A stretch of DNA of 39,580 nt from Hyphococcus sp. (GTDB taxonomy: Bacteria > Pseudomonadota > Alphaproteobacteria > Caulobacterales > Parvularculaceae). A program made the position numbers and the translations under genes. Below are positions 1,391 to 24,347 of the stretch, in pieces. Numbering within the stretch: the stretch's first letter is position 1; the number at the start of each line of letters is the position of its first letter. Under the pieces are notes generated by a model. That model was not told where the DNA came from, ran no database searches, and worked only from the letters and a program-made list of their open reading frames with translations. The stretch lies in assembly GCA_028285645.1 (NCBI GenBank), contig JANQOV010000103.1, positions 1 to 39,580 on the forward strand, read 5' to 3'.

Positions 1391-1423
1391 CCGATTTCAA
1401 TGGCGCCGCGATCGGCGAGCCCT

Positions 1424-1429
1424 TATAAT
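1424..1429 (+). promoter_or_regulatory. Candidate -10 element for the moa operon
   Basis: A perfect TATAAT lies 28 bases before the ATG at 1457. No convincing -35 box sits 16-18 bases upstream, so this is a weak promoter call. It matters because a longer moaA reading frame would start at 1400, upstream of this element; if the -10 is real, the ATG at 1457 is the start. Confidence 0.35.
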
Positions 1430-1456
1430 AAAGTAGCCCGCGGTATTTTGAGTGAT

Positions 1457-2455: not shown

Positions 2456-2457
2456 GC

Positions 2458-2709: not shown

Positions 2710-2719
2710 GGCGCGAGAC

Positions 2720-3184
2720 ATGATCAGCGTCACAGACCAGCCCTTTGATCCGGCAAACGCGCTTTCAAAGTTTGAACAACGTGCGCGCGGCGCCGGCGCC
2801 ATTGTGAATTTTATCGGCAAGGTGCGGGAGGAGGCGGACGGCGATCCTGTTGAGGCGTTAGTGCTGGAGCATTATCCTGGCGTGACGGAACAGTCGATCG
2901 CCGAGATTGCCGCTGACGCGCAGGCACGATGGCCGATCAGCGCAGTTGATATCATCCATCGCGTCGGGCGGCTTTCACCGGGCGAGCCGATTGTCATGGT
3001 CGCTGTCGCCAGCGCCCACCGACGCGCAGCGTTTGAAGCGGCAGACTTCCTTATGGACTATCTCAAAACCAGAGCGCTGTTCTGGAAAAAAGAAATTCGC
3101 GCCAGCGGCGAAACATGGATCGAGCCGCGCGACGACGATTACAAACACGCAGCGCTTTGGGAAGACAAAAAGGAAGGCGCCTAA
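2720..3184 (+). CDS. moaE: Molybdopterin synthase catalytic subunit MoaE
   Basis: Catalytic subunit that converts cyclic pyranopterin monophosphate to molybdopterin using MoaD thiocarboxylate. At 154 residues it has the normal length. Typical elements are GAIVNFIGKVRE near the N terminus, LEHYPGVTE, the IIHRVGRL segment, AVASAHRRAAFEAADFLMD, and the active-site region FWKKE. It follows moaD by ten bases and precedes moaB by three, consistent with one transcript. Confidence 0.95.
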   Translation: MISVTDQPFDPANALSKFEQRARGAGAIVNFIGKVREEADGDPVEALVLEHYPGVTEQSIAEIAADAQARWPISAVDIIHRVGRLSPGEPIVMVAVASAHRRAAFEAADFLMDYLKTRALFWKKEIRASGETWIEPRDDDYKHAALWEDKKEGA

Positions 3185-3187
3185 CCA

Positions 3188-3718
3188 ATGCATGGCATCA
3201 ATGAAGAGCTCGAATTCAAGCCGGTGCGAATTGCTGTGTTGACCGTGTCCGACAGCCGCACGCCGGCGACGGATACGTCTGGCGATATCCTGGCAGAACG
3301 TATCAAAACCGCGGGACACAAATTAGCGGCGCGCGATCTTGTGACCGATGACATCGACGTGGTCGCGAAACGGGTGTCAGCCTGGATTGATGACGAGACG
3401 GTTGATGTTGTGATTTCAACCGGCGGCACCGGACTGACGGGCCGCGACATCACGCCGGAAGCTATCAAGCCGCTTTTCGACAAGGAGATCGAGGGCTTTT
3501 CGGTGATCTTTCACAAGGTAAGCTTTGAAAGTGTCGGGCTATCCACCTTGCAATCGCGCGCAGTGGCGGGCGTCGCCAGGGACACATTTATCTTCGCGCT
3601 GCCGGGTTCTAACGGCGCCGTCAAAGACGGCTGGGACAAAGTGATTTCCTACCAACTCGATAGCCGGCACAAGCCCTGCAATCTTGTTGAGATCATGCCA
3701 CGCCTGATGGAACAGTAG
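3188..3718 (+). CDS. moaB: Molybdenum cofactor biosynthesis protein MoaB
   Basis: Member of the MoaB/MogA family, which adenylylates molybdopterin before metal insertion. The 176 residues match MoaB rather than MogA in layout: RIAVLTVSDSR at the N terminus, the pterin-binding loop STGGTGLTGRD, STLQSRAVAGVA, and ALPGSNGAVKDGWD. Because no separate mogA is seen in the operon, this protein probably supplies the adenylyltransferase step feeding MoeA. That is an inference from context, since E. coli MoaB itself is not essential for this step. Confidence 0.93.
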   Translation: MHGINEELEFKPVRIAVLTVSDSRTPATDTSGDILAERIKTAGHKLAARDLVTDDIDVVAKRVSAWIDDETVDVVISTGGTGLTGRDITPEAIKPLFDKEIEGFSVIFHKVSFESVGLSTLQSRAVAGVARDTFIFALPGSNGAVKDGWDKVISYQLDSRHKPCNLVEIMPRLMEQ

Positions 3719-3726
3719 GGTCTTGC

Positions 3727-4209
3727 ATGGCCGATGACTTAACGCATTTCGACGAAGACGGCCGGCCGCGCATGGTCGACGTGTCCGACAAAAAAGAAAG
3801 CGCGCGGCGAGCCGTCGCGCAGGGACGGGTTAAATTTGCGCCTGATGCGTATGAAATCATCCGGCAAAAGGGCGTCAAAAAAGGCGACATTCGAAAAGTC
3901 GCGGAGCTTGCCGGTGTCATGGGCGCCAAACGCACGTCGGACCTTATTCCCTTGTGTCATCCCTTGCCGATCTCTGGCGTATCCATTTCCGTTGAGCCTG
4001 ATGACGCGGCAAGCGGATTTGTTGTAACGGCGGAAGTCAAAACGACGGCGCAAACCGGCGTTGAGATGGAAGCGCTGACAGCGGTGATGACCGCGTGCCT
4101 GACGATCTATGACATGGCGAAGGCGGTTGATAAGTCGATCATCATTGAAGATGTAAAGCTGCTTGAAAAAACCGGAGGCAAATCCGGCGATTTTAAGCGC
4201 GAAGGGTGA
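3727..4209 (+). CDS. moaC: Cyclic pyranopterin monophosphate synthase MoaC
   Basis: Acts after MoaA and closes the cyclic phosphate of cPMP. The 160-residue protein contains MVDVSDK near the N terminus, the signature GAKRTSDLIPLCHPLPI, TGVEMEALTAV and the YDMAKAVDK active-site segment (the family usually has YDMCKA; the Ala is a common variant). It sits eight bases after moaB, and its TGA overlaps the GTG start candidate of moeA. Confidence 0.95.
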   Translation: MADDLTHFDEDGRPRMVDVSDKKESARRAVAQGRVKFAPDAYEIIRQKGVKKGDIRKVAELAGVMGAKRTSDLIPLCHPLPISGVSISVEPDDAASGFVVTAEVKTTAQTGVEMEALTAVMTACLTIYDMAKAVDKSIIIEDVKLLEKTGGKSGDFKREG

Positions 4210-5417
4210 CCCGGTTCGCCATGTTGAGCGTCGATGAAGCCATTGTGAAAATTCTAGCCGGCGCGGAACCGCTCAGCGCGGAAACGGTTTCGCTTTCGGA
4301 TGTGAACGGGCGCATTGCGGCTGTCGACATTGCTGCGCGAATGACTCAGCCGCCATTTTCCGCCTCTGCCATGGACGGCTATGCAGTTCGGTTTGAGGAT
4401 GTGAATCCCGGTGCAAGATTGCGCGTCATCGGCGAGGCGCCTGCGGGGACGCCTTTTGCGGGCAGCATCAGCGAAGGCGAGGCCGTGCGCATCTTTACCG
4501 GCGGCGCCGTGCCTGAAGGCGCTGATCATGTTGTCATTCAGGAAGATGTTGCGCGCGATGGTGATGAGATTACCATCGAAAGCCCGCAGGAGCGCCCGAG
4601 AAACATTCGGCCGGCCGGCGTCGACTTTTCTGAAGGCGATATTCTGGTGAAAACGGGAGAACGGCTGCACGAATTGCACGGCTCCATTTTAGCCGCTGCG
4701 AATGCGCCGGAAGTCAGTGTACGGCGGCGCCCGAAAGTTGTTCTCTTTTCGAACGGCGACGAGTTGAGAGAACCGGGCGCTGATTTGAAACCCGGCGAGA
4801 TTATCAACTCCAATCACTATGCATTAACAGCGCTTGCGGACCATTGGGGCGGCGAAGCGATCTATCTCGGATGCGCCGCGGATGAGGAAAACGTCGTCAA
4901 ATCGTTTTTTGAAAAAGCACAAGGCGCGGACATTATTCTCCCTATCGGCGGCGCATCGGTTGGCGACTATGATTACGTCAAGCCGGCCTTTCGCGCTGCG
5001 GGCGGCGAAACCGTCTTTGAAAAGATTGCCGTCAAGCCCGGCAAACCCACATGGTTCGGTCGCCTTGCGCGCGCGTGCGTGGTCGGGCTGGCTGGCAATC
5101 CAGCGTCGGCGATCGTTTGCGCAGCACTCTTTGTGCAACCGCTAGTGCGGCGCCTGGCGGGAGAGGTGGGAGATGAGGCAGCGAGTTTTATGAAGGCCAA
5201 GTCGGAAACGCCCTTGTCAGCCAATGGCGGACGCGAAGCCTATTTGCGTGCAGAAGCGATTATAGCGGGCGAGGGTCCCTTGCGCGTGCGCGCTGCCGAC
5301 AATCAGGACAGTTCGCTTTTATCTCCCTTCACATCCGCAAATGCGCTGATCCGCCGGAAACCAAATGCGCCCGCTATCGCTGCCGGCGATGACGTTGAAA
5401 TCGTCCGCTTGCGTTAA
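4206..5417 (+). CDS. moeA: Molybdopterin molybdenumtransferase MoeA
   Basis: Inserts molybdate into adenylylated molybdopterin. About 403 residues, normal for MoeA. Visible elements are PPFSASAMDGYAV, the TGGAVPEGAD loop, the MPT-binding motif PIGGASVGDYDYVK, VKPGKPTWFG, and GLAGNPASA near the C-terminal domain. Two starts are possible: the GTG at 4206, which overlaps the moaC stop, or the ATG at 4221 (reading MLSVDEA), which matches other MoeA N termini; the ribosome site GAAGGG at 4201 does not settle it. The stop codon lies within a TTAA shared with the convergent permease gene. Confidence 0.94.
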   Translation: MTRFAMLSVDEAIVKILAGAEPLSAETVSLSDVNGRIAAVDIAARMTQPPFSASAMDGYAVRFEDVNPGARLRVIGEAPAGTPFAGSISEGEAVRIFTGGAVPEGADHVVIQEDVARDGDEITIESPQERPRNIRPAGVDFSEGDILVKTGERLHELHGSILAAANAPEVSVRRRPKVVLFSNGDELREPGADLKPGEIINSNHYALTALADHWGGEAIYLGCAADEENVVKSFFEKAQGADIILPIGGASVGDYDYVKPAFRAAGGETVFEKIAVKPGKPTWFGRLARACVVGLAGNPASAIVCAALFVQPLVRRLAGEVGDEAASFMKAKSETPLSANGGREAYLRAEAIIAGEGPLRVRAADNQDSSLLSPFTSANALIRRKPNAPAIAAGDDVEIVRLR

Positions 5418-6178
5418 AAGACTAATGCCGTCCAGCGCAGCAACAAGCGCGCCGCCACATAAAGGATGAGCACTGCCGTCAGACCTTTGATGATGTTGGG
5501 CCGCAAGCCAACGCTGCCGAGGCGCGATCCGATTTGTCCGCCAATGAGCACCGCCGGGAGCAACGCCCAATAAGCGCTCAAGCCGGATACAAGACTGAGA
5601 TCGCTGAGCTTCATGACTTGTCCGCCGAGCCCGAAAAGCGAATTTATAAGAATGAATAAGGAGCACGCGCCGGCGATTTCTCGCGGGTTTCCCCAACGGA
5701 GAAAATAAAGCACCGGCGCGAGAAAAATGCCGCCGCCAATGCCAGCCAGTCCCGACACAAAACCAATGCCGCCGCCGACGGCAAAGTTGACAACCATTGG
5801 CGCTTTGCGCGCCCGGCTTTCTTCGATCTTGGCGCGAGTCTCAAATGCAAGACGCAGCCCCGCAACCAGCAATGAAAAGCCGAGCACGCCGACAAACACC
5901 GTTTCCGATATTGGCAATCGTCCGCCGACCCAGGCGGCGGGCGCCGACGCCGCCATCCACGGCAAAAGGCGGTTGACGGGCAAATGACCTGCGCGCCAAA
6001 ACCGCCAGACGCCGCCGCTCACCACAATGATGTTACAGATCAGCGCGATCGATGGCAGGATGCGGTAATCAGCGCCATGAAGGACAAGGAGCGCGTTGTA
6101 GGTTGAACCGCCGCCAAAGCCGACAGCGGCGTATAAGAGTGCGGTGATAAAAAACAGGGCGGCAAGAAGCGCAGTCAT
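5414..6178 (-). CDS. TauE/SafE family sulfite exporter-like membrane permease
   Basis: Polytopic inner-membrane protein of the TauE/SafE family, which exports small anions such as sulfite or sulfoacetate; the substrate here is unknown. The 254 residues contain the two-half layout: GFGGG at the start of the first half (AAVGFGGGSTYN) and the paired GLAGIGGGIFLAPVL at the start of the second, with about eight hydrophobic segments. The ATG at 6178 is chosen because the upstream extension to 6337 has no hydrophobic or family-like sequence and runs into mobA on the other strand. The gene is divergent from mobA (55-base gap) and convergent with moeA. Confidence 0.85.
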   Translation of the reverse strand: MTALLAALFFITALLYAAVGFGGGSTYNALLVLHGADYRILPSIALICNIIVVSGGVWRFWRAGHLPVNRLLPWMAASAPAAWVGGRLPISETVFVGVLGFSLLVAGLRLAFETRAKIEESRARKAPMVVNFAVGGGIGFVSGLAGIGGGIFLAPVLYFLRWGNPREIAGACSLFILINSLFGLGGQVMKLSDLSLVSGLSAYWALLPAVLIGGQIGSRLGSVGLRPNIIKGLTAVLILYVAARLLLRWTALVF

Positions 6179-6233
6179 AATCCCAGTGTTGGTTGTGCGG
6201 TCAAACACAGTAGCAGGAATTGGACGAACGAGC

Positions 6234-6851
6234 ATGAGTAAAGAAGGCGCAAGCGAACGAATTGGCGTCATTCTCGCAGGCGGGGGCTCGCGCCGGATGG
6301 AGGGGCGCGACAAAGCGACCGTAGACCTTGCCGGCAAGAGACTTGTCGATCATGTGATCGATCGATTGGCGCCGCAGGCGGATCGCTTGTTGATCTCGGG
6401 CGCCCGTGATTATGTGACGGGACTTACATTCATTGCCGATAGGGACGACGGACCTTCCGGTCCGGCCGCAGGCCTTTGGGCGGCGGCGCATTGGATCGAG
6501 GAAGTAGCATCATCTGCAACCGGCTTTGTAACGGCGCCCGTTGACGGACCCTTTTTACCGACGGACCTGTTTGAGCAACTGGCGGGCGAGGGCGCCAGTG
6601 CTGTCGCCTGCACGAAGCAAGGCATTCACCCCACCTTCGCCTATTGGCAAATCGATGACCTGTTGCGCGTTTTGGGCGCTGTAGAAAAAGGAGAAGGGTT
6701 GGCGCTCCACGAGTTGGCGAAACGATGCAATGCAAGGCGGGTTTCCATTGAGAGCGAAGACGCCTTTTTTAACGTCAATGCGCCATCAGACCTTAAACGT
6801 GCTGAGGCGCTCGCTAAAACGCAGGTGACGGAGTCCGACTCCCGTGAATGA
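6234..6851 (+). CDS. mobA: Molybdenum cofactor guanylyltransferase MobA
   Basis: Transfers GMP to molybdenum-molybdopterin to make the MGD form used by DMSO-reductase family enzymes such as the formate dehydrogenase at 21.5 kb. The nucleotide-binding signature GVILAGGGSRRMEGRDKA is at residues 13-30, and an Asp loop PVDGPFLP stands where others have DxPFLP. FNVNAPSDLKRAE near the end is typical. The length is 205 residues with the ATG at 6234; a longer frame from 6144 overlaps the divergent permease. The last codons overlap the matB start by eight bases, so the two genes are probably co-translated. Confidence 0.92.
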   Translation: MSKEGASERIGVILAGGGSRRMEGRDKATVDLAGKRLVDHVIDRLAPQADRLLISGARDYVTGLTFIADRDDGPSGPAAGLWAAAHWIEEVASSATGFVTAPVDGPFLPTDLFEQLAGEGASAVACTKQGIHPTFAYWQIDDLLRVLGAVEKGEGLALHELAKRCNARRVSIESEDAFFNVNAPSDLKRAEALAKTQVTESDSRE

Positions 6852-8367
6852 TAATCTTTATGCATTGTTTCAAAAATCGTTTGAGCATGCGTTCGACAAG
6901 CCCTATTTGGTAACACCCAAGGGCACCGTCACCACCTATGGCGAACTGGACGAACTTTCGGCGAAATTCGCAGCGCAGCTTTTGGGTCTTGGCGTTGCGC
7001 CGGGCGACCGGATCGTTGCGCAGATAGATAAATCTGTTGGCGCGGTTGCGCTTTATCTCGGCGCTTTGCGCGCAGGCGCTGTCTTCGTGCCACTCAACAC
7101 GGCGTATACCGCAAATGAAGTTGCGTATTTTCTGGAAGACGCCGAGCCAAAACTGTTGGTATGCCGCCCGCAAGACATTGATGCGCTTGGACCCATTACG
7201 AAAACCTGCGGCGTCGCGAATGTCCAATCCATGGGATGGGCGGCAAGGCTGGACGATGCTTCCGATTTTTGGTCAACGGCTGCGGCGTGCTCGCCGGCGC
7301 ATGACATTGTCGCCCGCGCCGCCGATGACCTTGCATCCATTCTTTACACGTCAGGAACGACGGGGCGTTCAAAAGGCGCCATGCTGACCCATGAGAATTT
7401 GCGCTCCAACGCTTTGGCGCTCCACAAGCTTTGGGGTTTTGTTCCAAACGACGTACTTTTGCATGCGCTGCCGATCTTTCACATTCACGGGCTGTTCGTT
7501 GCGCTTCACACGGCGCTGATCAACGCCTCGACGATTCTGTTCCTTGAAAAATTCGATGTGGAACAAGTCCGCGCCGAGCTTTCCAAGGCAAGCGTCATGA
7601 TGGGCGTTCCCACTTTTTATACGCGGCTCCTCGCGGCTGGTCTTTCCAAGGCGGAATGCAATCACATGCGCTTGTTTATCTCGGGGTCAGCGCCGCTCAC
7701 CGCGCAAGCCTCCGACGAATGGGCGGCCCGCACCGGCCATCGCATCCTGGAGCGTTATGGCATGACAGAAGCGGGGATGATCACCTCGAACCCGCTGGAG
7801 GGCGAACGCATTGCCGGGACGGTGGGCTATGCGCTGCCGGGTGTAGAAGTGCGGGTAGCGGATGAGAAGGGCGATGAACAACCGCGCGGCGAGATTGGCG
7901 TCATTGAAGTCCGTGGACCGAATATTTTCAAAGGCTATTGGCGGATGTCGGAAAAGACCCGAGAGGAATTCAGGTCCGATGGTTTCTTTATTACCGGCGA
8001 CAATGGCGTCATGGCGCCGGATGGACGGGTTACCATTGTCGGGCGCGCCAAGGATCTCATTATCTCCGGCGGCTACAACATTTATCCCAAAGAAATCGAA
8101 GCCGTGCTTGATGACATCTACAGCGTCAAAGAAAGCGCTGTTGTCGGCGCGCCGCACAAGGATCTTGGCGAGGGTGTTGTCGCCGTGCTGGTCGCCGACA
8201 AGGAAAAGGTAAGCGATCACGAAATTGAAGCAGCGCTCAACGAGCGGCTTGCGCGTTTCAAACATCCCCGCAAGTTTTTTTGGGTGGACGAATTGCCGCG
8301 CAACGCTATGGGCAAGGTTCAAAAGACGACGCTGCGCAAAGCTTATCGCGACGTCTATAAAGCGTAG
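6844..8367 (+). CDS. matB: Malonyl-CoA synthetase (MatB-type acyl-CoA ligase)
   Basis: ANL-superfamily ligase making malonyl-CoA (or methylmalonyl-CoA) from the free acid, ATP and CoA. The P-loop YTSGTTGRSKGAML is near residue 170, HALPIFHIHGLFVA follows, then SGSAPL, the ERYGMTEAGMITSNP segment that in MatB proteins forms the substrate site, DGFFITGDNG, and the C-terminal catalytic lysine in PRNAMGKVQK. The match to the Rhodopseudomonas MatB pattern is strong along the whole 507 residues. The start is a GTG inside the end of mobA. It could supply malonyl-CoA for fatty acid synthesis upstream of the storage-lipid locus at 9-13 kb, which is an inference from position. Confidence 0.88.
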   Translation: MNDNLYALFQKSFEHAFDKPYLVTPKGTVTTYGELDELSAKFAAQLLGLGVAPGDRIVAQIDKSVGAVALYLGALRAGAVFVPLNTAYTANEVAYFLEDAEPKLLVCRPQDIDALGPITKTCGVANVQSMGWAARLDDASDFWSTAAACSPAHDIVARAADDLASILYTSGTTGRSKGAMLTHENLRSNALALHKLWGFVPNDVLLHALPIFHIHGLFVALHTALINASTILFLEKFDVEQVRAELSKASVMMGVPTFYTRLLAAGLSKAECNHMRLFISGSAPLTAQASDEWAARTGHRILERYGMTEAGMITSNPLEGERIAGTVGYALPGVEVRVADEKGDEQPRGEIGVIEVRGPNIFKGYWRMSEKTREEFRSDGFFITGDNGVMAPDGRVTIVGRAKDLIISGGYNIYPKEIEAVLDDIYSVKESAVVGAPHKDLGEGVVAVLVADKEKVSDHEIEAALNERLARFKHPRKFFWVDELPRNAMGKVQKTTLRKAYRDVYKA

Positions 8368-8515: not shown

Positions 8516-9319
8516 ATGGCAGCCTCGCGAGTAGCACTTACCCGCCCCCATATTTCGCTGGCGTTTCTCGAAGTGGGGCGCGCGCTCGGGGAATTTTCGT
8601 TATTGCCGGCGGCTGAATTGCCGCTGCGTTTGGCGCCGGAAGGGGACGGCCATACGGTTCTTGTCTGTCCGGGCTTTTTAACGAGCGACGGCTCCACGGG
8701 ACCATTGCGCCGTTTCATTCGCAGCAAGGGATACAACGTCTACGGATGGAATCTTGGGCGCAATCTTGGGCCTGCGACAACGGGGTCGCGTCTTGAATTG
8801 CTGGAAGACCTCGTTGAGAGTTTGAAAAAGCAGTCGCACCGGAAAATTTCTATTGTTGGATGGAGCCTTGGCGGCGTCATGGCCCGCGAAATCGCCAAGC
8901 AACGGCCGGAGCTCGTGCGTCAGGTGATTACGCTAGGCAGCCCTCTGCACGGCCAGCCGGAAAGCTCCAATGTGAACTGGATTTACACCCGCGTTGCGAA
9001 GGACGCGCATCTGGAAGAAGAGATCGAGAAGATCCTGGAACAGTTGCATGAGCCGCCGGAGAAGGTGCCCTCAACTTCGATCTTTTCGAAGACTGACGGC
9101 GTCGTGCCCTGGCGCGGCTGCATTGAGCCGGAAACGCCGATCACCGACAATATTGAAGTCTACGCCAGCCATTGCGGTTTGGGCGTGAACCCCTTTGTCT
9201 ATTTCGCCATCGCCGACCGGTTGGCGCTGCCGGAAAATGACTGGACGCCGTTTGACCGGAACGCGTCGGCCTGGCGGCAGTTGGCTTATCCTTCGAGCGG
9301 GCACGGCTATAACGAATAA
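8516..9319 (+). CDS. Alpha/beta hydrolase
   Basis: Lipase-like alpha/beta hydrolase of 267 residues with no signal peptide or lipobox, so probably cytoplasmic. The nucleophile elbow is GWSLGG (Ser117). The likely acid is Asp194 in FSKTDGVVPW and the likely His is His219 in ASHCGLG, giving a full catalytic triad. The oxyanion region is probably CPGF at 51-54. The spacing and the TDGVVPW/SHCGL pair resemble proteins annotated as triacylglycerol lipase-like hydrolases. It faces the phasin gene across a bidirectional terminator, and may act on storage lipids or polyesters, but its substrate cannot be read from the sequence. Confidence 0.85.
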   Translation: MAASRVALTRPHISLAFLEVGRALGEFSLLPAAELPLRLAPEGDGHTVLVCPGFLTSDGSTGPLRRFIRSKGYNVYGWNLGRNLGPATTGSRLELLEDLVESLKKQSHRKISIVGWSLGGVMAREIAKQRPELVRQVITLGSPLHGQPESSNVNWIYTRVAKDAHLEEEIEKILEQLHEPPEKVPSTSIFSKTDGVVPWRGCIEPETPITDNIEVYASHCGLGVNPFVYFAIADRLALPENDWTPFDRNASAWRQLAYPSSGHGYNE

Positions 9320-9382: not shown

Positions 9383-9874
9383 CTAAGCGTTAGCAGAATT
9401 GCTTGCTTTCTTGCGAAGCGTAGACAGGAAGTCGGCAACCGGTTCCATGCTTTCGCGGCTGCTTTCTGCGGTCATCGAAGCAACGTCGCGGACTTGGCTT
9501 ACATTGCGCTCAATGCCTTCGCGAAGGGCGTCGCGTTGGATACGCAAGGATTCAGCAAGTGAGTCTGCATCCATAGCGTCCCGCAGGGCTTCAAATGTTG
9601 CGTCAGTGTTTTCCTGCGCATTTTCGATGATGGTCATGATCACTTCGCGTCGTTTTTCATCCATGATGTGACCGGACTCTTGAAGCGCTTCGCCGGCTTC
9701 TTTGAAGCCAGCCTGAATGCGCTGCAAGATCGATTCGACATGCGCATCCGCAGCTTCAGCCTGCTTCTTCACAGTTTTTGCAGCAGTTTTCTTCGGTGCC
9801 GCTTTTTTCGCCGTTTTCTTTTTCGCGGCGGTTTTTTTGGTCGTTTTCTTTTTCGTGGTTTTTGCTTCAGTCAT
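9383..9874 (-). CDS. Phasin-like granule protein with a lysine-rich, histone H1-like N terminus
   Basis: 163 residues in two parts. Residues 1-38 are nearly all Lys, Ala and Thr (16 lysines), resembling the AAKP-type DNA-binding tail of PhaF and histone H1. Residues 40-163 form an amphipathic helical domain with no cysteines and many Gln/Glu/Ala, typical of phasins that coat polyester or lipid granules. The ATG at 9874 has a strong AAGGAG six bases upstream. It is the last gene of the minus-strand cluster TetR - WS/DGAT - hydrolase - phasin. Likely a granule-surface protein that also binds nucleic acid; assignment to the phasin family rests on composition and context rather than a fixed motif. 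Confidence 0.7.
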   Translation of the reverse strand: MTEAKTTKKKTTKKTAAKKKTAKKAAPKKTAAKTVKKQAEAADAHVESILQRIQAGFKEAGEALQESGHIMDEKRREVIMTIIENAQENTDATFEALRDAMDADSLAESLRIQRDALREGIERNVSQVRDVASMTAESSRESMEPVADFLSTLRKKASNSANA

Positions 9875-9909
9875 TTCAAGCTCCTTTCAGTTCGCGTGGT
9901 GTAGACTGG

Positions 9910-10830
9910 TCAAGCCGCCTTGACCGAGGCGGTTTCTTTTTCGACCGACTTCAAATGGTCGGTTACGAATTCGAGTATTTTCGGCAGGTATTTCGGCGGC
10001 AGGTCATGGCCCATGCCGTCGATGATTTCAGCGCGCGCGCCACTGACATTAGCGGCGATATCCAGTCCGCCTTTGAACGGCGTTAACGGATCTTCAGCGC
10101 CGTGTACGACGAGCGTCGGCGCTTCAATTTTCTTCGTCCAACGGCGCAAATCACCGGTCGCGATGATGGCGGCGATCTGCCGGCGCACACCTTGGGGATA
10201 GGTGCACCGGTCAACAGCCGCTTCAAGCCGCTTGCGGAACTCAACAGGATCGTTGCCGCCGTCCTTGGTGCCGATGAGGCTCCACAAATGCATGGACCGG
10301 TCAACGAGTCCCTTGCGCGTTCGCGGCTGCGTGCGCGTAACGAAAAGTTCTTTGACAAGATTTTGATCCGCTTTCGGCAGGCTCGGATTATTCGTGGTCG
10401 ACATAATCGCCGTGAAGCTCTTAACGCGATCCTTGTCGTTCGCCGCAAGCACTTGCCCGATCATCCCGCCCATGGAAACGCCAATCACATGCGCTTTTTC
10501 GATTGACAGCGCGTCAAGCACGCCGGCGGTGTCCGCGGCCATATCGACGAGCGTGTAAGGGGCAAGTTTGCTAACGTTGACAAAACGCGACAGCGCCAGA
10601 TACGCCAGTGGGTTGAGCGCGCTTTTTGCGTGCAGCTTTTCAGAAAGGCCGATATCGCGGTTGTCGAAGGCAATGACGTAAAAGCCCGCCTTGACGAGAC
10701 CATCGATGAAAGCCGGCGGCCAATAGATAAGCTGACCAGCCAGTCCCATGATCAACAGAACAGGCGGGTTCGAGGGATCGCCATATTCCTCGACTTCTAT
10801 TGCAATATTATTGGCCAAAACGCGCGTCAT
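9910..10830 (-). CDS. Alpha/beta fold hydrolase in the lipid storage cluster
   Basis: 306 residues. Oxyanion segment LIMGLAGQ near residue 27, nucleophile elbow GVSMGG with Ser119, acid Asp247 in HGAEDPLTP, and His275 in DGMGHDLPP form a complete triad. The family includes esterases, monoacylglycerol lipases and polyester depolymerases. An AGGAA ribosome site precedes the ATG. The gene lies 19 bases after the WS/DGAT gene and 35 bases before the phasin gene, so it is almost certainly co-transcribed with them and probably mobilises or trims stored acyl esters. The exact substrate is not visible. Confidence 0.85.
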   Translation of the reverse strand: MTRVLANNIAIEVEEYGDPSNPPVLLIMGLAGQLIYWPPAFIDGLVKAGFYVIAFDNRDIGLSEKLHAKSALNPLAYLALSRFVNVSKLAPYTLVDMAADTAGVLDALSIEKAHVIGVSMGGMIGQVLAANDKDRVKSFTAIMSTTNNPSLPKADQNLVKELFVTRTQPRTRKGLVDRSMHLWSLIGTKDGGNDPVEFRKRLEAAVDRCTYPQGVRRQIAAIIATGDLRRWTKKIEAPTLVVHGAEDPLTPFKGGLDIAANVSGARAEIIDGMGHDLPPKYLPKILEFVTDHLKSVEKETASVKAA

Positions 10831-10849
10831 TGCGGTGGGTTCCTATTCG

Positions 10850-12403
10850 TCAGTGCAGGGCGGGTTTCGCCGCGCCGTTGCCATTTTCAGGCGCGTGCGT
10901 CGCCGCTTTCTTTTTTGGCTTCTTGGTTTTGCGTTTCTTCTTCGCCGGCGGCTTAACGGCTGCGGCGTAGAGTTCATCGAACGACGCCTGCAGGCATTCT
11001 GCATAGAATGCGGGGTCAGGCATCATCTTGCGGCAGGCCGTCACGGTGATGCAGATCTCGCCGCAATAGCTAGTCACCGCATGGAAGAGACCCATGGAGT
11101 CCATGACCGGGCCAACGCCGTAAGACCCAACCATGCGCGCGCCGGCCATGTAAAGCGGGATCGGCGGGCCAGGAACGTTGGTGACCACGGTGTTGAACAT
11201 CGGCCGGATGCGGTTGGCGAGGCCAAGGCGCGTATAGACCCGCGCGGCGACGCCGGTGACCATGGCGGGAGAAAGTTTCGACGCTTCCGAAAGTTCGCGC
11301 GCGCCGACAGCATTCGCCGTTTCCTTGGAATTGACCGCAGCTTCATGCGTGAAGTGAAGCCGCGCTAACGGATCGGCAATATGAGTGCCAAGCTGAATGC
11401 TCAGGGCCGAGACTTCATTACCGAGGGATTTCTTTTCCGATTGCGAACGAACCGAGATCGGCGCCATGGCAATCAGGGAATCCTGCGGCAGGTCTTCCTT
11501 GTCGAGAAGGTAACGGCGCAGGCCGCCACCGACGATAGCAAGGATGGCGTCATTGACGGTTGCGCCCGGAATGCGTTGCTTGATCTCTTTTACCTTGTTG
11601 AGATCAAGGGCGACGCCGTCGATGACGCGATGCGCAGAAACGGTGCCGTTAAAGCGGGTGCGCGGCACTTTTGCGCCCATCAGTTTGATGTCGCCGCGGC
11701 GAAGCCCTGCGAGATATTTGAGCGCGCCCGGCGCCATGCGCCGACCGACATTGATGGCGTGAAACGGTTTGGTCCATGCGTTGTAATTGGCGCGGGCCAG
11801 GAGTTCGACATTCCCGGGCTCGCGCGCCGATTTTGGCTTATCGGTCGGCGGCTCAACCGTATCTTCCGGCTGCAGACTATGAACGGCTTGCGCAATCTCA
11901 ACGCCCGATGCGCCGTCAATGGCGCAATGGTGTATCTTTGAAAAAATAGCGTAAGCGCCTTTCGGCACTCCCTTGATGTTGTCGAGCCCTTCGATGACGG
12001 TGAATTCCCAAAGCGGCTTTGACAGATCAAGCGGCCGCGCATGCAGCCGCGACGCCTGAATACAAAGCTGCCGCCAGTCGCCAGGCTGAGGCAGGGCGAT
12101 GTGGCGGATGTGGAATTCAATGTCGAACTCGGTATCGTCAACCCAGTAAGGGTGATCAACGCCGAAGGGCGCTTGCTTTAGTTTGCGCTGAAACGTTGTC
12201 GCGCGGTGAACCCTGTCTTCGACATATTGGAGAATATCTTTGAAGCGAACCTTGCCGCCGGCCGCAGTAGACGGATCATAAATGGCAATGGAGCCGATAT
12301 GCATCGGCGAGCGCGCATTTTCCAAATACAAAAACGCAGCGTCGAGACCCGTGAGCTGCTCGGGCGACCACTCCTTGATGAGATTGCCGATCTTTCCCGC
12401 CAT
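10850..12403 (-). CDS. Wax ester synthase/diacylglycerol acyltransferase (WS/DGAT)
   Basis: Bifunctional acyl-CoA acyltransferase that esterifies fatty alcohols or diacylglycerol, making wax esters or triacylglycerol at the inner membrane. The active-site motif HHxxxDG is KIHHCAIDGASG (His158, His159, Asp163). N-terminal LTGLDAAFLYLE and PLDLSKPLWE at 124-133 are family hallmarks, as are NVPGP and GVGPVMDSMGL in the C-terminal domain. At 517 residues it is longer than usual because of a C-terminal tail with ten Lys and one Arg in 16 residues (KPPAKKKRKTKKPKKK), followed by a Pro/Asn/Ala stretch. A GGGAGAG ribosome site supports the ATG at 12403. Promoter and candidate operator lie just upstream. 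Confidence 0.92.
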   Translation of the reverse strand: MAGKIGNLIKEWSPEQLTGLDAAFLYLENARSPMHIGSIAIYDPSTAAGGKVRFKDILQYVEDRVHRATTFQRKLKQAPFGVDHPYWVDDTEFDIEFHIRHIALPQPGDWRQLCIQASRLHARPLDLSKPLWEFTVIEGLDNIKGVPKGAYAIFSKIHHCAIDGASGVEIAQAVHSLQPEDTVEPPTDKPKSAREPGNVELLARANYNAWTKPFHAINVGRRMAPGALKYLAGLRRGDIKLMGAKVPRTRFNGTVSAHRVIDGVALDLNKVKEIKQRIPGATVNDAILAIVGGGLRRYLLDKEDLPQDSLIAMAPISVRSQSEKKSLGNEVSALSIQLGTHIADPLARLHFTHEAAVNSKETANAVGARELSEASKLSPAMVTGVAARVYTRLGLANRIRPMFNTVVTNVPGPPIPLYMAGARMVGSYGVGPVMDSMGLFHAVTSYCGEICITVTACRKMMPDPAFYAECLQASFDELYAAAVKPPAKKKRKTKKPKKKAATHAPENGNGAAKPALH

Positions 12404-12459
12404 GCCGTTTCTCTCCCGATTTTTATGGTTGCTGCTATTTCGCGATAGCTTGCTTCAGG

Positions 12460-12487
12460 AACATAGATAATCAATTAATAGAGTCAA
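12460..12487 (-). promoter_or_regulatory. Promoter of the WS/DGAT-hydrolase-phasin operon
   Basis: Read on the minus strand, TTGACT (12482-12487) and TATGTT (12460-12465) are separated by 16 bases, about 57 bases before the WS/DGAT ATG. The -35 box lies in the middle of the palindrome at 12473-12498. Confidence 0.5.
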
Positions 12488-12498
12488 GTCTAGTAATT
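12473..12498. promoter_or_regulatory. Candidate TetR operator overlapping the WS/DGAT promoter
   Basis: Two 10-base arms, AATTAATAGA and TCTAGTAATT, are inverted repeats with nine of ten positions matching and a six-base GTCAAG spacer. The palindrome covers the -35 box of the operon promoter, where bound repressor would block RNA polymerase. Its length and position fit a TetR-family dimer, and the adjacent TetR gene is the obvious candidate; binding is inferred. Confidence 0.5.
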
Positions 12499-12557
12499 TA
12501 TTGCGGCGCAATATTTCACAGTCCGCGCTGGGCGGAATCGCATAAATCCAAATAAAA

Positions 12558-13193
12558 TCAATCAACTAGAAATCGGGACCGATTGGCGGCACCATAAAGG
12601 ATGAGGTCCAGCGTCTGCCGATTAGCCCTGCGGGCCTCGTCGTCATCGCCGGATTTGGCCCATTGGGTGGCCGCCGCGCTCCAGCCCGCCATCAGGCATT
12701 GGGCGATGATTTCAGGGTCATAATCGCTTGAAAGTTCGCCGCTCGCCTGGCCTGAGCGGATGATGTCTTCCGCCAGTTGCATGAGGCTCGCATTCGTTCC
12801 GATGAGAGCGCCGCTATTTTGCGAGGCGGCGTCGGCCATGATCTGGCGGAGGAGAACGCTGCGTTGGCTCCACTCGTCAAGAATGATGGCGCGCAAGAGT
12901 TCCAGCTCCTCAAGGGCGCCTGCCGAAAAGCCGGAAAGCCGCTCTTTGACGACGTCGGCAACATGTTCATTGAAAGCGTCGATCAACGCCGCTTTTGTCG
13001 GGAAATGCAAAAAGAACGTTGCGTTGGCAATGTCAGCGCGATTGGAGATCTCTTCGATGGTGACGTCATCATAGCCGCGTTCGGCCATGAGTTCGAAAGC
13101 AGCCTCAAGGATGCGCATGCGGGTTTCGCGTTTTTTGCGCTCCCGGCGGGAAAGCGGAGCGCTGTCGGGGATCGGACGATCGAACTGGGACAT
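12558..13193 (-). CDS. TetR/AcrR family transcriptional regulator
   Basis: 211 residues. The N-terminal helix-turn-helix follows the family pattern: RRERKKRETRMRILEAAFEL, then MAERGYDDVTIEEISNRADI and ATFFLHFPTKAALIDAF (roughly residues 17-70). The remaining helical domain would bind a ligand and dimerise; its ligand is unknown, but acyl-CoA or a fatty acid would suit the location. It is the first gene of the minus-strand lipid cluster, separated from WS/DGAT by 154 bases that hold a promoter and palindrome, and its own upstream region has a second palindrome at 13221-13239, suggesting autoregulation. Confidence 0.9.
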   Translation of the reverse strand: MSQFDRPIPDSAPLSRRERKKRETRMRILEAAFELMAERGYDDVTIEEISNRADIANATFFLHFPTKAALIDAFNEHVADVVKERLSGFSAGALEELELLRAIILDEWSQRSVLLRQIMADAASQNSGALIGTNASLMQLAEDIIRSGQASGELSSDYDPEIIAQCLMAGWSAAATQWAKSGDDDEARRANRQTLDLILYGAANRSRFLVD

Positions 13194-13488: not shown

Positions 13489-14271
13489 TCAATCGCCGCC
13501 AACCGCATCATGCAGCGTGACGGCCGGCGCCGCGCCGTCAAACGAGATGCGCGCATCGACGTCGAAGACAGATTTCATGCGCTCGGGCGTTAGCGTCTCG
13601 CGAACTGCGCCGTCAGCGACGAGTTTGCCGTCTTTCAGCCAGACAAATCGGTCCGCAAACCGCGCCGCCAGATCGATATTGTGCAGGACTGCGAGCGCGC
13701 CGCCGCCATTGTCAACAAACTGACGGATGAGCCGCATGATCTGAAACTGATGTTTGGGATCGAGCGCCGCCACCGGCTCGTCGGCGATTAGGAGCGGCGC
13801 CTCAGCGGCGAAGCTCCGCGCGCAATGAACTCGCGCCAGCTCGCCACCCGAAAGTGTGTCCGTATGCCGATCCGTGAGATGTTTGAGATTGCAATCGCGC
13901 AGAGCCTTGTCGACAGCCTCGGCGTCGGCGCCTTTCGGTTTGCTGATGGATGCGCCGAAGGCGTAGCGGCCAAGGGCGACCACATCGCGAACGGTGATCG
14001 GCCAGACCAGCGGGCGGATTTGCGGCAGGTATGAGATGAGGCGCGCTCGTTCTGTCGGGACGAGGCTACTCACCGGCGCGCCATTGATCAGCGCCGCGCC
14101 GGTTGTAGGCGGCGTTAGCCCAAGCGCGCATTGCAGCAGGGACGTTTTGCCGGCGCCATTGGGACCGACAATGGCGACAAACTCATTGGTGGTAAGTTTG
14201 ACAGAGATGTCATCGAGAATGATCGCATCGCCAACGGTCAGCCCAATATGGTCAAGCGCAAGTTCAGCCAT
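13489..14271 (-). CDS. btuD: Vitamin B12 ABC transporter ATP-binding protein BtuD
   Basis: Cytoplasmic ATPase of a FecE/BtuD-type importer, 260 residues. Walker A GPNGAGKT near residue 36, Q-loop YLPQIRP, signature LSGGELAR, Walker B LLIADEPVAALDP and the switch His in AVLHNIDLAARFADR are all present, so it should be active. Its start overlaps the end of the permease gene by eight bases. B12 specificity is assigned from the operon, which starts with a cobalamin riboswitch and a BtuB-like receptor, not from this protein alone. Confidence 0.87.
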   Translation of the reverse strand: MAELALDHIGLTVGDAIILDDISVKLTTNEFVAIVGPNGAGKTSLLQCALGLTPPTTGAALINGAPVSSLVPTERARLISYLPQIRPLVWPITVRDVVALGRYAFGASISKPKGADAEAVDKALRDCNLKHLTDRHTDTLSGGELARVHCARSFAAEAPLLIADEPVAALDPKHQFQIMRLIRQFVDNGGGALAVLHNIDLAARFADRFVWLKDGKLVADGAVRETLTPERMKSVFDVDARISFDGAAPAVTLHDAVGGD

Positions 14272-15253
14272 TGGCGGGGCGCCTCTTCATGGCGATCCAG
14301 ACAAAGGCCGGCGCGCCGATCAGCGCAGCAACGACGCCGAGCTTTAGCTCCGAAGGCGTCGGAATGATCCGTACGCCAATATCAGCGAACACCAATATTA
14401 CGCCCGCCAAAAGCGCTGCTGGCGCAAAAGTCCGCGCCGGATCATAAGCAACCAATGGCCTGACGAGATGCGGCGCGACGATGCCTACAAAGGCGATGGC
14501 GCCGGCGATGGAGACAGCGGCGCCCGTTAAAAGACCGGCGCCGATGATGACCAGCATGCGCGTGCGGCGAAGGTTGACGCCAATGCCAAAGGCGGCCTCC
14601 TCTCCGAGGGTAAGGGCGGACAGCTCCCGGCGCGCGAATACAAGACAGGCCAAACCGGCCACAAGAAACGGCGACGCCAATGCCATATCATTGACGCTGC
14701 GGTTCGCAACTGATCCCAAAGTCCAGTTGATGAGATCAGAAAGCGTGAATGGGTTTGGCGCGAGGTTGAGCAAAAGCGCCATCAGCGCGCCGGAAAAACT
14801 TGTAAGGCCAACGCCGATCAAAATCAGCGTTACCATCGATGACGTATGCATGGCGGCGATGGCGAGGACGAGTGTTGCCGCAAGGGCGCCGACCACAGCA
14901 GCGATCGGCAACACAAAAGCCGACGCGCCGGCAAGTCCATAGAAAAGTGCAAGCGTTGCGGCTAACGCAGCGCAAGAGGAAACCCCAAGAATGCCCGGTT
15001 CGGCGAGGGGGTTCCGCAACAGTCCTTGCAAAGCGGCGCCGCTTAGCCCCAATGCTGCGCCTACAGTAAAGGCGGCCAGCGCCCGCGGCAGTCTGATTTC
15101 CCAAAGCACAAGCTGATCGCCGATCTCGCCGCCGCCGAAGAGCGCCGCCGCCAGTCTTGCCGGCGACAAGTTAACGGAGCCAAATGTGCAGGCGGCGAGG
15201 ATCGCGACAAGCGCCGCTCCGCAAAGCGATATAATCAGTGTACGGTCTGTCAT
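14264..15253 (-). CDS. btuC: Vitamin B12 ABC transporter permease BtuC (FecCD family)
   Basis: Inner-membrane permease of 329 residues with about ten hydrophobic segments. The family signature RLPRALAAFTVGAALGLSGA followed by LQGLLRNPLAEPGILGVSS is at about residues 54-92, and the second-half motif GAIAFVGIVAPHLVRPL, which docks to the ATPase, is near residue 260. It overlaps btuD by eight bases and the btuF stop region by four, a tight translational unit. Confidence 0.9.
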   Translation of the reverse strand: MTDRTLIISLCGAALVAILAACTFGSVNLSPARLAAALFGGGEIGDQLVLWEIRLPRALAAFTVGAALGLSGAALQGLLRNPLAEPGILGVSSCAALAATLALFYGLAGASAFVLPIAAVVGALAATLVLAIAAMHTSSMVTLILIGVGLTSFSGALMALLLNLAPNPFTLSDLINWTLGSVANRSVNDMALASPFLVAGLACLVFARRELSALTLGEEAAFGIGVNLRRTRMLVIIGAGLLTGAAVSIAGAIAFVGIVAPHLVRPLVAYDPARTFAPAALLAGVILVFADIGVRIIPTPSELKLGVVAALIGAPAFVWIAMKRRPANG

Positions 15254-16095
15254 TGCACGACCGGCGCGTCGCCGCCCGCCGCCAGCGCCTCAACCGCGTC
15301 AAGCAGGAACCACGCGCCGCAGGAGGTCCAGGCGCCGGGAAGGGAGACCGTCGGCGTTTCCTGTATTGCGCGTCTGACTAAGGGATGACGAGACGGCGTC
15401 CAGCGGTCAGTGGTCAAGTCGTTGGTGTCAAAAAAGCCGGCAGCGATCATGTCAGGCTGGTTATAGGCGAGGGACTCTAGAGGAATAGACGCCCAGCCGG
15501 GCCGTTCCTGAAAGTTCCGGTGGCCTGCCTTTTCCAGCAGGTCGCCGACCATGGTCCCGGTTCCGGCAACGGCGCCTTTGGAGGTGAGGTATAGCATGGA
15601 GGATGAAGACGTCCGCGCGGGGATGGCGGCAAGGCGCGCTTTCATTTCTGCAACGACCTCGGCGCCTTTTTCGGGTTCGCCAAGGTGTTCGGCTGTGTCG
15701 AGGGTGATCTGTTTGACGGCGTCCAGATCGTTCGCGTAGCCGATCTGCACGACTTCAATGCCGGCGCGCTCAAAAAACGCGACAGCGTTCGGCCCGCCGC
15801 CATAGGTCCGCACCACCATGTCTGGCTTTAGGAGCAAAATGTCTTCTGCGCGCGATCGCACCTTGGGAAAGCCGCGCGCTTCTTCTTTCATATACGAAAA
15901 GGTTGCCTCTGCATCGGGCGAGAGACCCGCAATGTTTTTAGGGTCAGCAAGCTTCAAAACATATTGATCGGCGCAATAATCGAGACTGACAATTCTTTGT
16001 GGACCGTTTTGCGCTGGCGTTTTGGCTGATGGCGAGCCGCTGCAGCCCGCCATCAAGAGTACTATGCCCGCAAGTATTGTCAGCTTGCCAATCAT
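15250..16095 (-). CDS. btuF: Cobalamin-binding periplasmic lipoprotein BtuF-like
   Basis: Substrate-binding protein of the FecB/BtuF family, 281 residues. A hydrophobic leader ends in the lipobox LMAGC, with Cys18 as the lipidated residue, so it is a lipid-anchored periplasmic protein. RIVSLDYCADQYVLKLAD, then ILLLKPDMVV and a C-terminal lobe ending in a Trp-rich segment (GAWTSCGAWFLLDAVEAL) match the family. It begins one base after the btuB stop. Binding of cobalamin rather than a siderophore is inferred from the riboswitch and BtuB. Confidence 0.85.
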   Translation of the reverse strand: MIGKLTILAGIVLLMAGCSGSPSAKTPAQNGPQRIVSLDYCADQYVLKLADPKNIAGLSPDAEATFSYMKEEARGFPKVRSRAEDILLLKPDMVVRTYGGGPNAVAFFERAGIEVVQIGYANDLDAVKQITLDTAEHLGEPEKGAEVVAEMKARLAAIPARTSSSSMLYLTSKGAVAGTGTMVGDLLEKAGHRNFQERPGWASIPLESLAYNQPDMIAAGFFDTNDLTTDRWTPSRHPLVRRAIQETPTVSLPGAWTSCGAWFLLDAVEALAAGGDAPVVQ

Positions 16096-16096
16096 A

Positions 16097-17935
16097 TCAG
16101 AAGGTCAGCCTCACGCCGCCATAGGCCGAAAGACCCGGCGTTCCGTATCCGGAAAGTTGTTGGTAGTCTTCATCGAAGAGATTTTCAATGCGCCCATAGA
16201 GCTGGATCGTATCGTTGAGCTGGTAGCTCGCCGCAACGTCAACGCGGATCCATTCGTCAACGTCCGACGCGAAAAATCCTTCGGTTTCATCGCCATTATA
16301 GCGCAGGACAATGGATCCGGCGAACGGCCCGTCGTTGCTATACAGCAAGGCGACATCGCCGGAATGACGCGGCACCCTGATCTGGCGTTCGCCTGTGGTT
16401 GCGTCTTTGGCGTCGATATAGGCGTGGTTGGCGGAAAGGCTAAGTCCGCCGATCAACGCGACGTCAAGCGCGGTTTCGACCCCTTGCGCTTCCGTTGCGT
16501 CGAGATTCTCGTAACGGAAGTTGGGCGCAAAGATGATGAGATTTTCCGTGTCGCGATTGAAATAGGTAACGCTCAAACGCGCCCGGTCGTTCGGCAAGGA
16601 AACGTCAAGCCCCACATCAAACGCTTCGCTTGTTTCCGGCTGTAAGTCGCCATTGGGTGGCAGGGCGCCAAAGGTCTGCGTCAGCTGGAAGATCGTCGGC
16701 GCTTTAAAGCCTTCGCCCCAACTGCCGCGCACGGTTAGATAATCCGTAACTGCAAATGAAGCGGCGGCGCGGGCTGTGGTTTCTGATCCAAAGCGGCTGT
16801 GATCGTCATTTCGAACACCGGCGGACAGCGTCAGCCGGTCGATTGGTTTGAACTCAACGAGACCGAAGAAGCCATTGATAGAGGTGTCATCGCCATTGGC
16901 TTCCGCCTCTTCGCGCTCGGCGCCAAAGGCTGCGCGCAACATCTCCGTTAGCTCGACCGTTCCCTGATAGCGAAGGATCAGCCGGTCGCCCGTATCAGTG
17001 GTTTCAAAGCCGCCGAAATTTCCTGTCCGTTCGATATCGGTGTAGCCGACCATGAAGTTGTTGGTAAAGCGGTCATCGAACAGCGGAACGAACAGCGTCG
17101 CAGCGCCGGTGAACTGTTCGGTTTCGGAAAAGTCTTCAGTATCGGCCAGCGAAAAGTTCGGCGGAGGAAAGCCGTCGATCTCGGTTTCGCCATTCATGTG
17201 GCGGGCCGTGAGGTCGAGCCTTGCCCCATAAGGAAGATTGAGCCCCGCGCGGCCTGCAAACGTAAGACCGTTATAGCTGTCAGTTTCCGTATTGCCGTCA
17301 TCTTCATCGGCTTTTGAAATGCCGTCGCTGGTAACACCGGAAACGGACAGGCGAAAATCACCGGTCTCATTGCCGCCGGTAAGCGACGCGCCGCCGCGGA
17401 ATGTGCCAAAGGAACCGCCCTCGGCGAAAAGCTTGCCGCCTAGGCCGTCTTCCGGGCGCTTGGAGACAATGTTGACGACGCCGCCAATGGCGTCCGATCC
17501 CCAGAGTGTTGACTGCGGGCCCTTGAGCACTTCGATGCGCTCAATGTCGTCAACGTCGAGGATCGAAAAATCATAGCCGCCGCCAACCGCGGTCGGATCG
17601 CCAATCGGCACGCCGTTGAGCAACGTCAACGTCTGGTCCGACGATGCACCGCGAATGCGTACGGTTGCAACACCGCCAAAGGCGCCGTTTTGATTGATGG
17701 TAACTCCCGGCGCTGCCGCAAGCGCATCAAGCGCGAAAGAATAGCCGCGCAGCTCTATATCTTCTGCTGTAATGACGGAAACGCTTGAGCCGGTTTCCGT
17801 GAGCGGCGTCGCCAGCCGCAAACCTTCGACGATGATTTCGTCTTTTTTTGTTTCATCCGCATCCTGCGCTGTGGCGATGCCGGGCAAACTCAACAGGGCG
17901 ATGCAAGGCAATCGCCAAACTCTTTTATCAACCAT
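16097..17935 (-). CDS. btuB: TonB-dependent vitamin B12 receptor BtuB
   Basis: Outer-membrane receptor of about 612 residues, the usual size for BtuB. A signal peptide (residues 1-23, ending ATAQ) is followed by a TonB-box-like DEIIVEG, then the plug domain with IRGASSDQTLTLLNGVPIGD and IERIEVLKGPQSTLWGSDAIGGVVNI, and a beta-barrel ending in the terminal aromatic GGVRLTF. The ATG at 17935 has a strong AAGGAG six bases upstream; an extension to 17974 reads through that site and is rejected. It is the first gene downstream of the cobalamin riboswitch and is followed after one base by btuF. Confidence 0.92.
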   Translation of the reverse strand: MVDKRVWRLPCIALLSLPGIATAQDADETKKDEIIVEGLRLATPLTETGSSVSVITAEDIELRGYSFALDALAAAPGVTINQNGAFGGVATVRIRGASSDQTLTLLNGVPIGDPTAVGGGYDFSILDVDDIERIEVLKGPQSTLWGSDAIGGVVNIVSKRPEDGLGGKLFAEGGSFGTFRGGASLTGGNETGDFRLSVSGVTSDGISKADEDDGNTETDSYNGLTFAGRAGLNLPYGARLDLTARHMNGETEIDGFPPPNFSLADTEDFSETEQFTGAATLFVPLFDDRFTNNFMVGYTDIERTGNFGGFETTDTGDRLILRYQGTVELTEMLRAAFGAEREEAEANGDDTSINGFFGLVEFKPIDRLTLSAGVRNDDHSRFGSETTARAAASFAVTDYLTVRGSWGEGFKAPTIFQLTQTFGALPPNGDLQPETSEAFDVGLDVSLPNDRARLSVTYFNRDTENLIIFAPNFRYENLDATEAQGVETALDVALIGGLSLSANHAYIDAKDATTGERQIRVPRHSGDVALLYSNDGPFAGSIVLRYNGDETEGFFASDVDEWIRVDVAASYQLNDTIQLYGRIENLFDEDYQQLSGYGTPGLSAYGGVRLTF

Positions 17936-18074
17936 TTCTTGCTCCTTGCCCGGTGTTCTCCGGGCTGCAAACACTGACCATGAGCCAAGGCGCTGTACCT
18001 TGACGCTCTCACAAGTGTCGCTTCAAAGGAGAAGTGTTCCTGTCCGGATGGCTTTCCCGGCCTCGAACGAGCGA

Positions 18075-24346: not shown

Positions 24347-24347
24347 C

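Follow-up and report, generated by a model that had tools for sequence, protein, structure and literature searches.

PhaM and PhaF, proteins of polyester granules, bind DNA through a histone-like domain, PhaH does so through a helix-hairpin-helix (HhH), and loss of any of the three disturbs the organisation of the granules (2025 review PMC13052382). MLDS of Rhodococcus binds DNA through its lysine-rich C-terminus, an ability abolished by a K-to-E change (PMC5504291), the KPAA region of AlgP is required for the spacing of polyphosphate (polyP) granules (PMC9239181), and an HhH of unknown function has been remarked on in PhaC, the polyhydroxyalkanoate (PHA) synthase of Haloferax mediterranei (PMC12028471). 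The present analysis concerns a gene cluster of Hyphococcus sp. (Alphaproteobacteria; Parvularculaceae) in which a protein of the WS/DGAT family, the presumed wax ester/triacylglycerol synthase, and a nearby phasin both carry lysine-rich tails that may act as tethers of this kind. The cluster occupies positions 9383-13193 of contig JANQOV010000103.1 (assembly GCA_028285645.1), of which positions 1 to 39,580, the whole stretch of DNA analysed, will be called the window.

The described systems resemble the cluster in different respects. PhaF of Pseudomonas (PF05597) is a granule-coat protein with a Lys/Ala-rich tail, a C-terminal AAKP repeat, whereas the phasin of the window matches PF09361 and not PF05597, its tail is N-terminal and of a KKTAK/KKTT-like pattern with no AAKP/KPAA repeat, the synthase has a tail of its own, and the granule material is presumably neutral lipid; the resemblance to PhaF/PhaI is thus one of mode of working only. 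PhaM of Ralstonia eutropha (Cupriavidus necator) tethers granules to the nucleoid and also binds and activates PhaC, which couples synthesis to the tether (PMC13052382), but it is a separate protein of polyester granules, while the basic tail in the window is part of the synthase polypeptide itself. MLDS of R. jostii has a lysine-rich C-terminal tail on a DNA-binding protein of neutral-lipid droplets and a regulator gene in its operon (PMC5504291); it is, however, a non-enzyme of another family, and the actinobacterial WS/DGATs sampled here are almost all tail-less. An earlier reading of the sequence alone, made without database searches, had drawn the parallel with MLDS, which holds for the lysine tail and fails for the regulator, that of MLDS being a helix-turn-helix protein of the xenobiotic-response-element type and not TetR.

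In AlgP of Pseudomonas aeruginosa a KPAA tail resembling histone H1 is responsible for the spacing of a storage granule (PMC9239181), although the granules are of polyP, the repeat region is 154 aa long and there is no enzymatic domain. PhaH of Caulobacter (Salinas et al. 2023, as described in PMC13052382 and PMC12028471) is a phasin in which the HhH is the nucleoid-binding module. An HhH is fused to WS/DGAT in five relatives of the window, the two kinds of HhH being compared by description only, but the protein in the window has none, and PhaH is a phasin rather than a synthase. PhaC of H. mediterranei also makes a storage polymer, its C-terminus is disordered, and it has an HhH, for which its authors draw a comparison with PhaH (PMC12028471); it differs in being an archaeal PHA synthase, with no neutral lipid and no lysine-rich phasin reported.

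I found no description of a basic, lysine-rich or HhH tail on a WS/DGAT in the open literature, a search outside which most subscription journals lie. On the placement and sharing of neutral-lipid bodies in bacteria, the searchable literature has a worked-out case in MLDS of Rhodococcus alone, with nothing for the wax-ester or triacylglycerol bodies of proteobacteria. What is new here may be a granule-to-nucleoid tether of known kind that has been moved onto a lipid synthase.

The storage cluster and its two basic tails

Four genes on the minus strand follow one another in an operon-like arrangement, in transcription order TetR, WS/DGAT, alpha/beta hydrolase and Phasin_2. Gene calls and Pfam profiles bear out the coordinates and gene order given by the sequence-only reading, and its lysine counts for the two tails are exact. 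The features are as follows.

12558-13193, minus strand: TetR-family regulator (FadR/ScbR-like) that presumably controls the cluster (TetR_N PF00440, 1.4e-15)
10850-12403, minus strand: WS/DGAT (WS_DGAT_cat PF03007, 2.9e-63; WS_DGAT_C PF06974, 3e-32; TIGR02946, 451 bits against 310)
11912-11932, minus strand: catalytic motif HHxxxDG of the WS/DGAT (HHCAIDG, residues 158-164, read from the translation)
10853-10960, minus strand: basic, predicted disordered C-terminal tail of the WS/DGAT, residues 482-517, net charge +11 (lysine counts, charge and predicted local distance difference test, pLDDT)
9910-10830, minus strand: alpha/beta hydrolase with a GVSMGG nucleophile motif, candidate lipase/esterase for stored lipid (Abhydrolase_1 PF00561, 1.3e-26)
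9383-9874, minus strand: Phasin_2 family protein of 163 aa, presumed inclusion coat (PF09361, 4e-10, 40.2 bits against a cut-off of 24.9)
9761-9874, minus strand: lysine-rich N-terminal tail of the phasin, residues 1-38, 16 Lys, net charge +15 (lysine counts and charge)

The protein at 10850-12403 is a member of the WS/DGAT family by every measure applied: full-length matches to PF03007 and PF06974, TIGR02946, the motif and the fold. Residues H158, H159, D163 and G164 are invariant in an alignment of 19 rows, and the AlphaFold model has a confident WS/DGAT fold, with 6chj (a Marinobacter WS/DGAT, 2.4e-32) and 7nxg as its best Foldseek matches. It is the sole family member in its own genome assembly (86.6% complete) and, judged by these relationships, would synthesise wax ester or triacylglycerol. 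The protein stops 36 aa past the core. The densest part of its tail, residues 484-499 (10907-10954; KPPAKKKRKTKKPKKK), holds 10 Lys and one Arg, and residues 488-517 are predicted to be disordered (pLDDT < 50). The tail is no DNA repeat, which rules out a microsatellite as its origin.

The tail of the phasin precedes a remainder that carries a net charge of -10. It is very probably translated, because there is no second early Met and AAAGGAG stands just 5' of the ATG. A part of it is encoded by a 15-bp repeat (9804-9855, 64% matches), too degenerate for a microsatellite origin, which was rejected. The protein falls well short of the narrower TIGR01985 equivalog (29.9 against 99.7 bits), and from its family and position it is presumed to be the coat of a neutral-lipid inclusion. 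Two more Phasin_2 genes lie elsewhere in the genome, making three in total, and the genome also encodes a PHA synthase, PhaC (L043:541-2475, G000:C8). That PhaC begins with a lysine-rich stretch, MTQAKDAAATPKTKAKPAPVRKKKAVSKMAAPKPSAEKPK, a second storage synthase with a basic tail in the same cell.

Tethering to the nucleoid (or to a polyanion) is the most likely reading of the tails, with a probability that I place at roughly 0.52. Taking the window and its relatives together, the presumed neutral-lipid synthase bears modules of both types, and the coat encoded next to it bears the basic type. The cluster would be a dedicated neutral-lipid storage operon, presumably with WS/DGAT, hydrolase and phasin under the control of TetR: the first would make wax ester or triacylglycerol with its core on the membrane or on the growing lipid body, the second would probably mobilise the stored lipid, and the third would coat it. 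The flexible polycationic tails, C-terminal on the synthase and N-terminal on the phasin, would bind the backbone of nucleoid DNA without regard to sequence, and lipid bodies would in this way be held along the chromosome from synthesis onward, spaced, and divided between daughters, in the way that polyester granules are handled by PhaF, PhaM and PhaH. On the synthase of the closest relatives the tether would consist of a basic linker plus HhH, and in the window of the basic part alone. A wider claim, which I advance tentatively and at somewhat less than even odds, is that across Proteobacteria the fat synthase bears its own chromosome tether, the modules (lysine tail or HhH) being interchangeable on synthase and coat, so that a lipid body would be fixed to the nucleoid from its very beginning.

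Should the tails prove to be tethers, the modules described for polyester and polyphosphate granules would serve lipid bodies too, and the synthase itself; synthesis would be joined to chromosome position, and the segregation of storage inclusions would have the synthase, besides the phasin, as an anchor. The sequence rule itself (a basic tail or HhH on a WS/DGAT or on the adjacent phasin) yields a list of candidate genomes.

Composition and breadth of the tails

The base rate of such tails was taken from 88 loci with WS/DGAT genes, in which genes were called mechanically and the rows are phylogenetically non-independent. A stretch of 20 residues with at least seven lysines lies within the last 60 residues of 23/80 WS/DGATs, as against 2/806 other genes at the same loci; the same density within the first 45 residues occurs in 1/806 neighbouring genes. 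One of the two background genes with a lysine-rich C-terminus is likewise a lipid-synthesis enzyme, a fusion of HAD and PlsC-type acyltransferase near a WS/DGAT (L174:2388-4001) with the C-terminal tail KPKSKKAAAKKPAAKKKAAP. As for phasins, the N-terminus of Phasin_2 reaches 11 lysines per 20 residues in the window and 7-8 in L001-L004, four sequences from metagenome-assembled genomes (MAGs) of Parvularculaceae-type Alphaproteobacteria. At least seven per 20 within the first 60 residues were found in all five members of this cluster type, versus 1/32 alphaproteobacterial Phasin_2 proteins that were not picked for WS/DGAT.

A broader sample of 124 distinct WS/DGATs was drawn without selecting for tails, by the catalytic profile, by the core alone, or by the whole window protein via conserved core peptides, with Gammaproteobacteria sampled at phylum level. 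Of these proteins 55 have a basic tail, five have an HhH and 64 have neither. Pooled, the 55 tails consist of 19% Lys, 23% Ala, 11% Pro and 7.9% hydrophobic residues (32.7% in the cores), a Lys/Ala/Pro-rich composition, poor in hydrophobics, of the type of histone H1, PhaF and AlgP. The share of lysine exceeds that of the core in 52/55 tails over all loci, and at loci with GC above 60% the ratio of Lys to Arg is 1.82 in the tails and 0.47 in the cores. Because this preference for Lys over Arg runs counter to base composition, the lysine of WS/DGAT tails is likely to be under selection. Chance and base composition as the source of the tails are ruled out by the same bias in GC-rich genomes together with the base rate.

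These figures bear on the possibility that the cluster serves ordinary neutral-lipid metabolism, its tails being drifting low-complexity appendages (a matter of solubility or crowding) with no role as tethers, and that the phasin serves the cell's own polyhydroxybutyrate granules. The genome does contain PhaC, itself with a lysine-rich start, part of the phasin tail is a degenerate repeat, tails are often gained or lost (parsimony requires at least 14 changes), and some published WS/DGAT neighbourhoods contain PHA or phasin genes (metagenome study PMC10351704). Set against the roughly hundredfold lower base rate in neighbouring genes, the excess of Lys over Arg and over the cores, and the basic character that both proteins keep in every one of the five cluster members, drift is the least probable of the alternatives considered here.

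A different role for the same charges would be electrostatic attachment to anionic phospholipid, of the WS/DGAT to the inner membrane or the droplet monolayer and of the phasin likewise, with no part for DNA. As a rule WS/DGATs are enzymes of the membrane periphery, anionic lipid is bound by polylysine segments, and the tails occur on lipid-facing proteins from different families. The tails are nonetheless unlike amphipathic membrane helices, given their few hydrophobic residues and the predicted disorder of the one in the window; the HhH that stands at the same place in relatives is no known membrane binder; and the 64 proteins with neither kind of tail imply that an anchor is not generally needed. 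I consider attachment to lipid unlikely, though it is the strongest rival to a nucleoid tether.

At 17 of the inspected loci a phasin gene stands no more than about 3 kb from WS/DGAT, the phasins belonging to two unrelated families; that WS/DGATs occur near PHA or phasin genes has been noted before in the same metagenome study (PMC10351704), which also describes another C-terminal domain, SCP-2, on WS/DGATs of Bacteroidota. Tails are present on both proteins in the window and in L007 and L009, two MAG sequences of Woeseiaceae with a phasin of the unrelated family. In G686 and G660 an untailed WS/DGAT adjoins a phasin with a lysine-rich C-terminus, and in G184 and G288 a tailed WS/DGAT adjoins an untailed phasin. 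As a matter of description, then, some WS/DGAT-phasin pairs look complementary in which partner carries the tail. The tailed phasins of L007, L009, G686 and G660 are all of the PF05597 type, that of PhaF, and in L007 and L009 this different family has been recruited beside the WS/DGAT.

Relatives and the HhH domain

In the WS/DGAT tree the window protein groups with L001-L004, with G024 (a genome of the same genus; locus L049/L073) and with L005-L009 (MAG sequences of Woeseiaceae), with a support of 100. The four-gene set is kept in L002-L004 (TetR standing about 3.4 kb upstream in L002) and WS/DGAT-hydrolase-phasin in L001. TetR homologues 56-58% identical to that of the window lie upstream of WS/DGAT in L002-L004, and hydrolase orthologues, 50-65% identical, lie directly 3' of WS/DGAT in L001-L009, L073, L116, L117 and L119. 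Orthologues of the phasin are present in L001-L004, all with a lysine-rich N-terminus, and in the WS/DGATs of the same four sequences the basic linker is likewise kept throughout and is followed by an HhH domain. The basic character of both proteins thus persists in all five cluster members. The expectation that the tails would be kept in close relatives was borne out for these four, and not for L005 and L008, which are untailed. The proposal that the cluster anchors lipid bodies is partly supported by tails that recur and are conserved, but it had missed both the HhH variant and the breadth of tails among WS/DGATs.

The HhH was recognised by HHH_5 in the WS/DGATs of L001-L004 (E 9e-6 to 2.4e-4, slightly under the Pfam cut-off of 27 bits) and by an in-house hidden Markov model at 103-110 bits in all five WS/DGATs that have the domain (L001-L004 and G024, L049 included). 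Its structural model is a small helical unit with a pLDDT of 81-87 over residues 31-90. The WS/DGAT of the window lacks the domain, and there is no room for a remnant downstream of its stop codon, the next gene beginning 19 bp on. Its last residues, ALH, are nevertheless similar to the TVH, TIH or SVH of the HhH-bearing proteins, and this similarity together with the tree suggests that the HhH was lost in the window rather than gained late in the others, repeated gain being the alternative.

Several observations weigh against nucleoid tethering. The tail in the window is short, 36 aa as against the 154-aa KPAA region of AlgP, and both the WS/DGAT and its neighbouring phasin lack a strong tail in G100. 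L005 and L008 belong to the same clade and have WS/DGATs with no tail at all (lost or never present), and most congeners have solely untailed WS/DGATs of another clade, or none; a basic tail is for these reasons dispensable for WS/DGAT generally. The HhH is near neutral (net charge -1 to +3), its best sequence matches among solved structures are the reaction-centre O chain and a subunit of complex I, neither of which binds DNA, followed by topoisomerase V and NusA, and a fold search with the HhH model gave no significant match. With no significant fold match, and with complex I and reaction-centre subunits leading the sequence matches, I dropped the HhH as structural proof of DNA binding. Moreover, ribosomal protein L21 bears a like basic linker and HhH, both in the window's own genome (L165:1075-1710, G000:C90), where the C-terminus runs KPKQTAKKPAKKKAAPKKEAS... 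and then into the HhH, and in G024 (L073:7170-7844).

Because L21 carries the same linker and HhH, the module may be a general polyanion-binding or even protein-binding unit. This opens the way to an explanation in which the tails bind RNA, ribosomes or polyP, a generic module (basic linker with or without HhH) held in common with L21 that would link storage bodies to translation or to polyP. To the L21 of the own genome may be added the G024 locus, in which the L21 gene divergently adjoins the HhH-bearing WS/DGAT, and AlgP, which has a KPAA tail and is associated with both polyP granules and DNA. WS/DGAT, on the other hand, is no translation protein, and where granule proteins are known to have tails of this sort, the link described is with DNA and the nucleoid. 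I regard binding to RNA or polyP as a little less likely than attachment to lipid, and prefer the nucleoid as the partner of the tails. L21 is also a possible source of the HhH module of WS/DGAT. A search of the own genome for a PhaH-like protein, by way of this type of HhH, returned just L21 and a weak match in an apparent DNA polymerase IV.

Two further observations concern relatives of the synthase. G024 has a second WS/DGAT paralogue (L074:5656-7242) in which the tail is denser still, Lys or Arg making up 16 of 20 residues (KKAKKKKKKDKKKNKKKNKKNRK). The WS/DGAT and hydrolase of Woeseiaceae (Gammaproteobacteria; L005-L009) nest inside the clade of Parvularculaceae (Alphaproteobacteria), which suggests horizontal transfer of the pair.

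Regulation and neighbouring genes

The gaps between WS/DGAT, hydrolase and phasin, read from the coordinates, are just 19 and 35 bp, which suggests that the three genes form a single transcript. The TetR protein scores under the NCBIfam equivalog cut-offs. Between its gene and that of WS/DGAT lies one further feature.

12473-12499, minus strand: operator-like site AAATTACTAGACTTGACTCTATTAATT, overlapping a TTGACT/TATGTT promoter-like pair

Some 100-120 bp upstream of WS/DGAT, the window and L001-L004 share a site with the core ACTRGAC-N4-CTCYAKT (small deviations allowed for) and AT-rich flanks. The palindromy of the site is by itself not significant, being matched by 102/1000 shuffles; it is the conservation across five species, rather than the palindromy, that makes an operator of TetR plausible here.

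Two plus-strand genes converge on the lipid cluster, one for a malonyl-CoA synthase (6844-8364; NF005702, 738 bits against 558) and the other for a further alpha/beta hydrolase (8516-9319); a role in the supply of precursors is possible for them. Upstream of TetR, on the minus strand at 13489-17974, are a TonB-dependent receptor, a periplasmic binding protein, a membrane protein and an ABC ATPase, a set of the cobalamin/siderophore uptake type. The window also contains a formate/C1 module, at 1400-6851 and 21494-27004, made up of molybdenum cofactor genes (radical SAM/Mob_synth_C, MoeA, MobA-like), a formate dehydrogenase-like molybdopterin oxidoreductase and a formate-tetrahydrofolate ligase.

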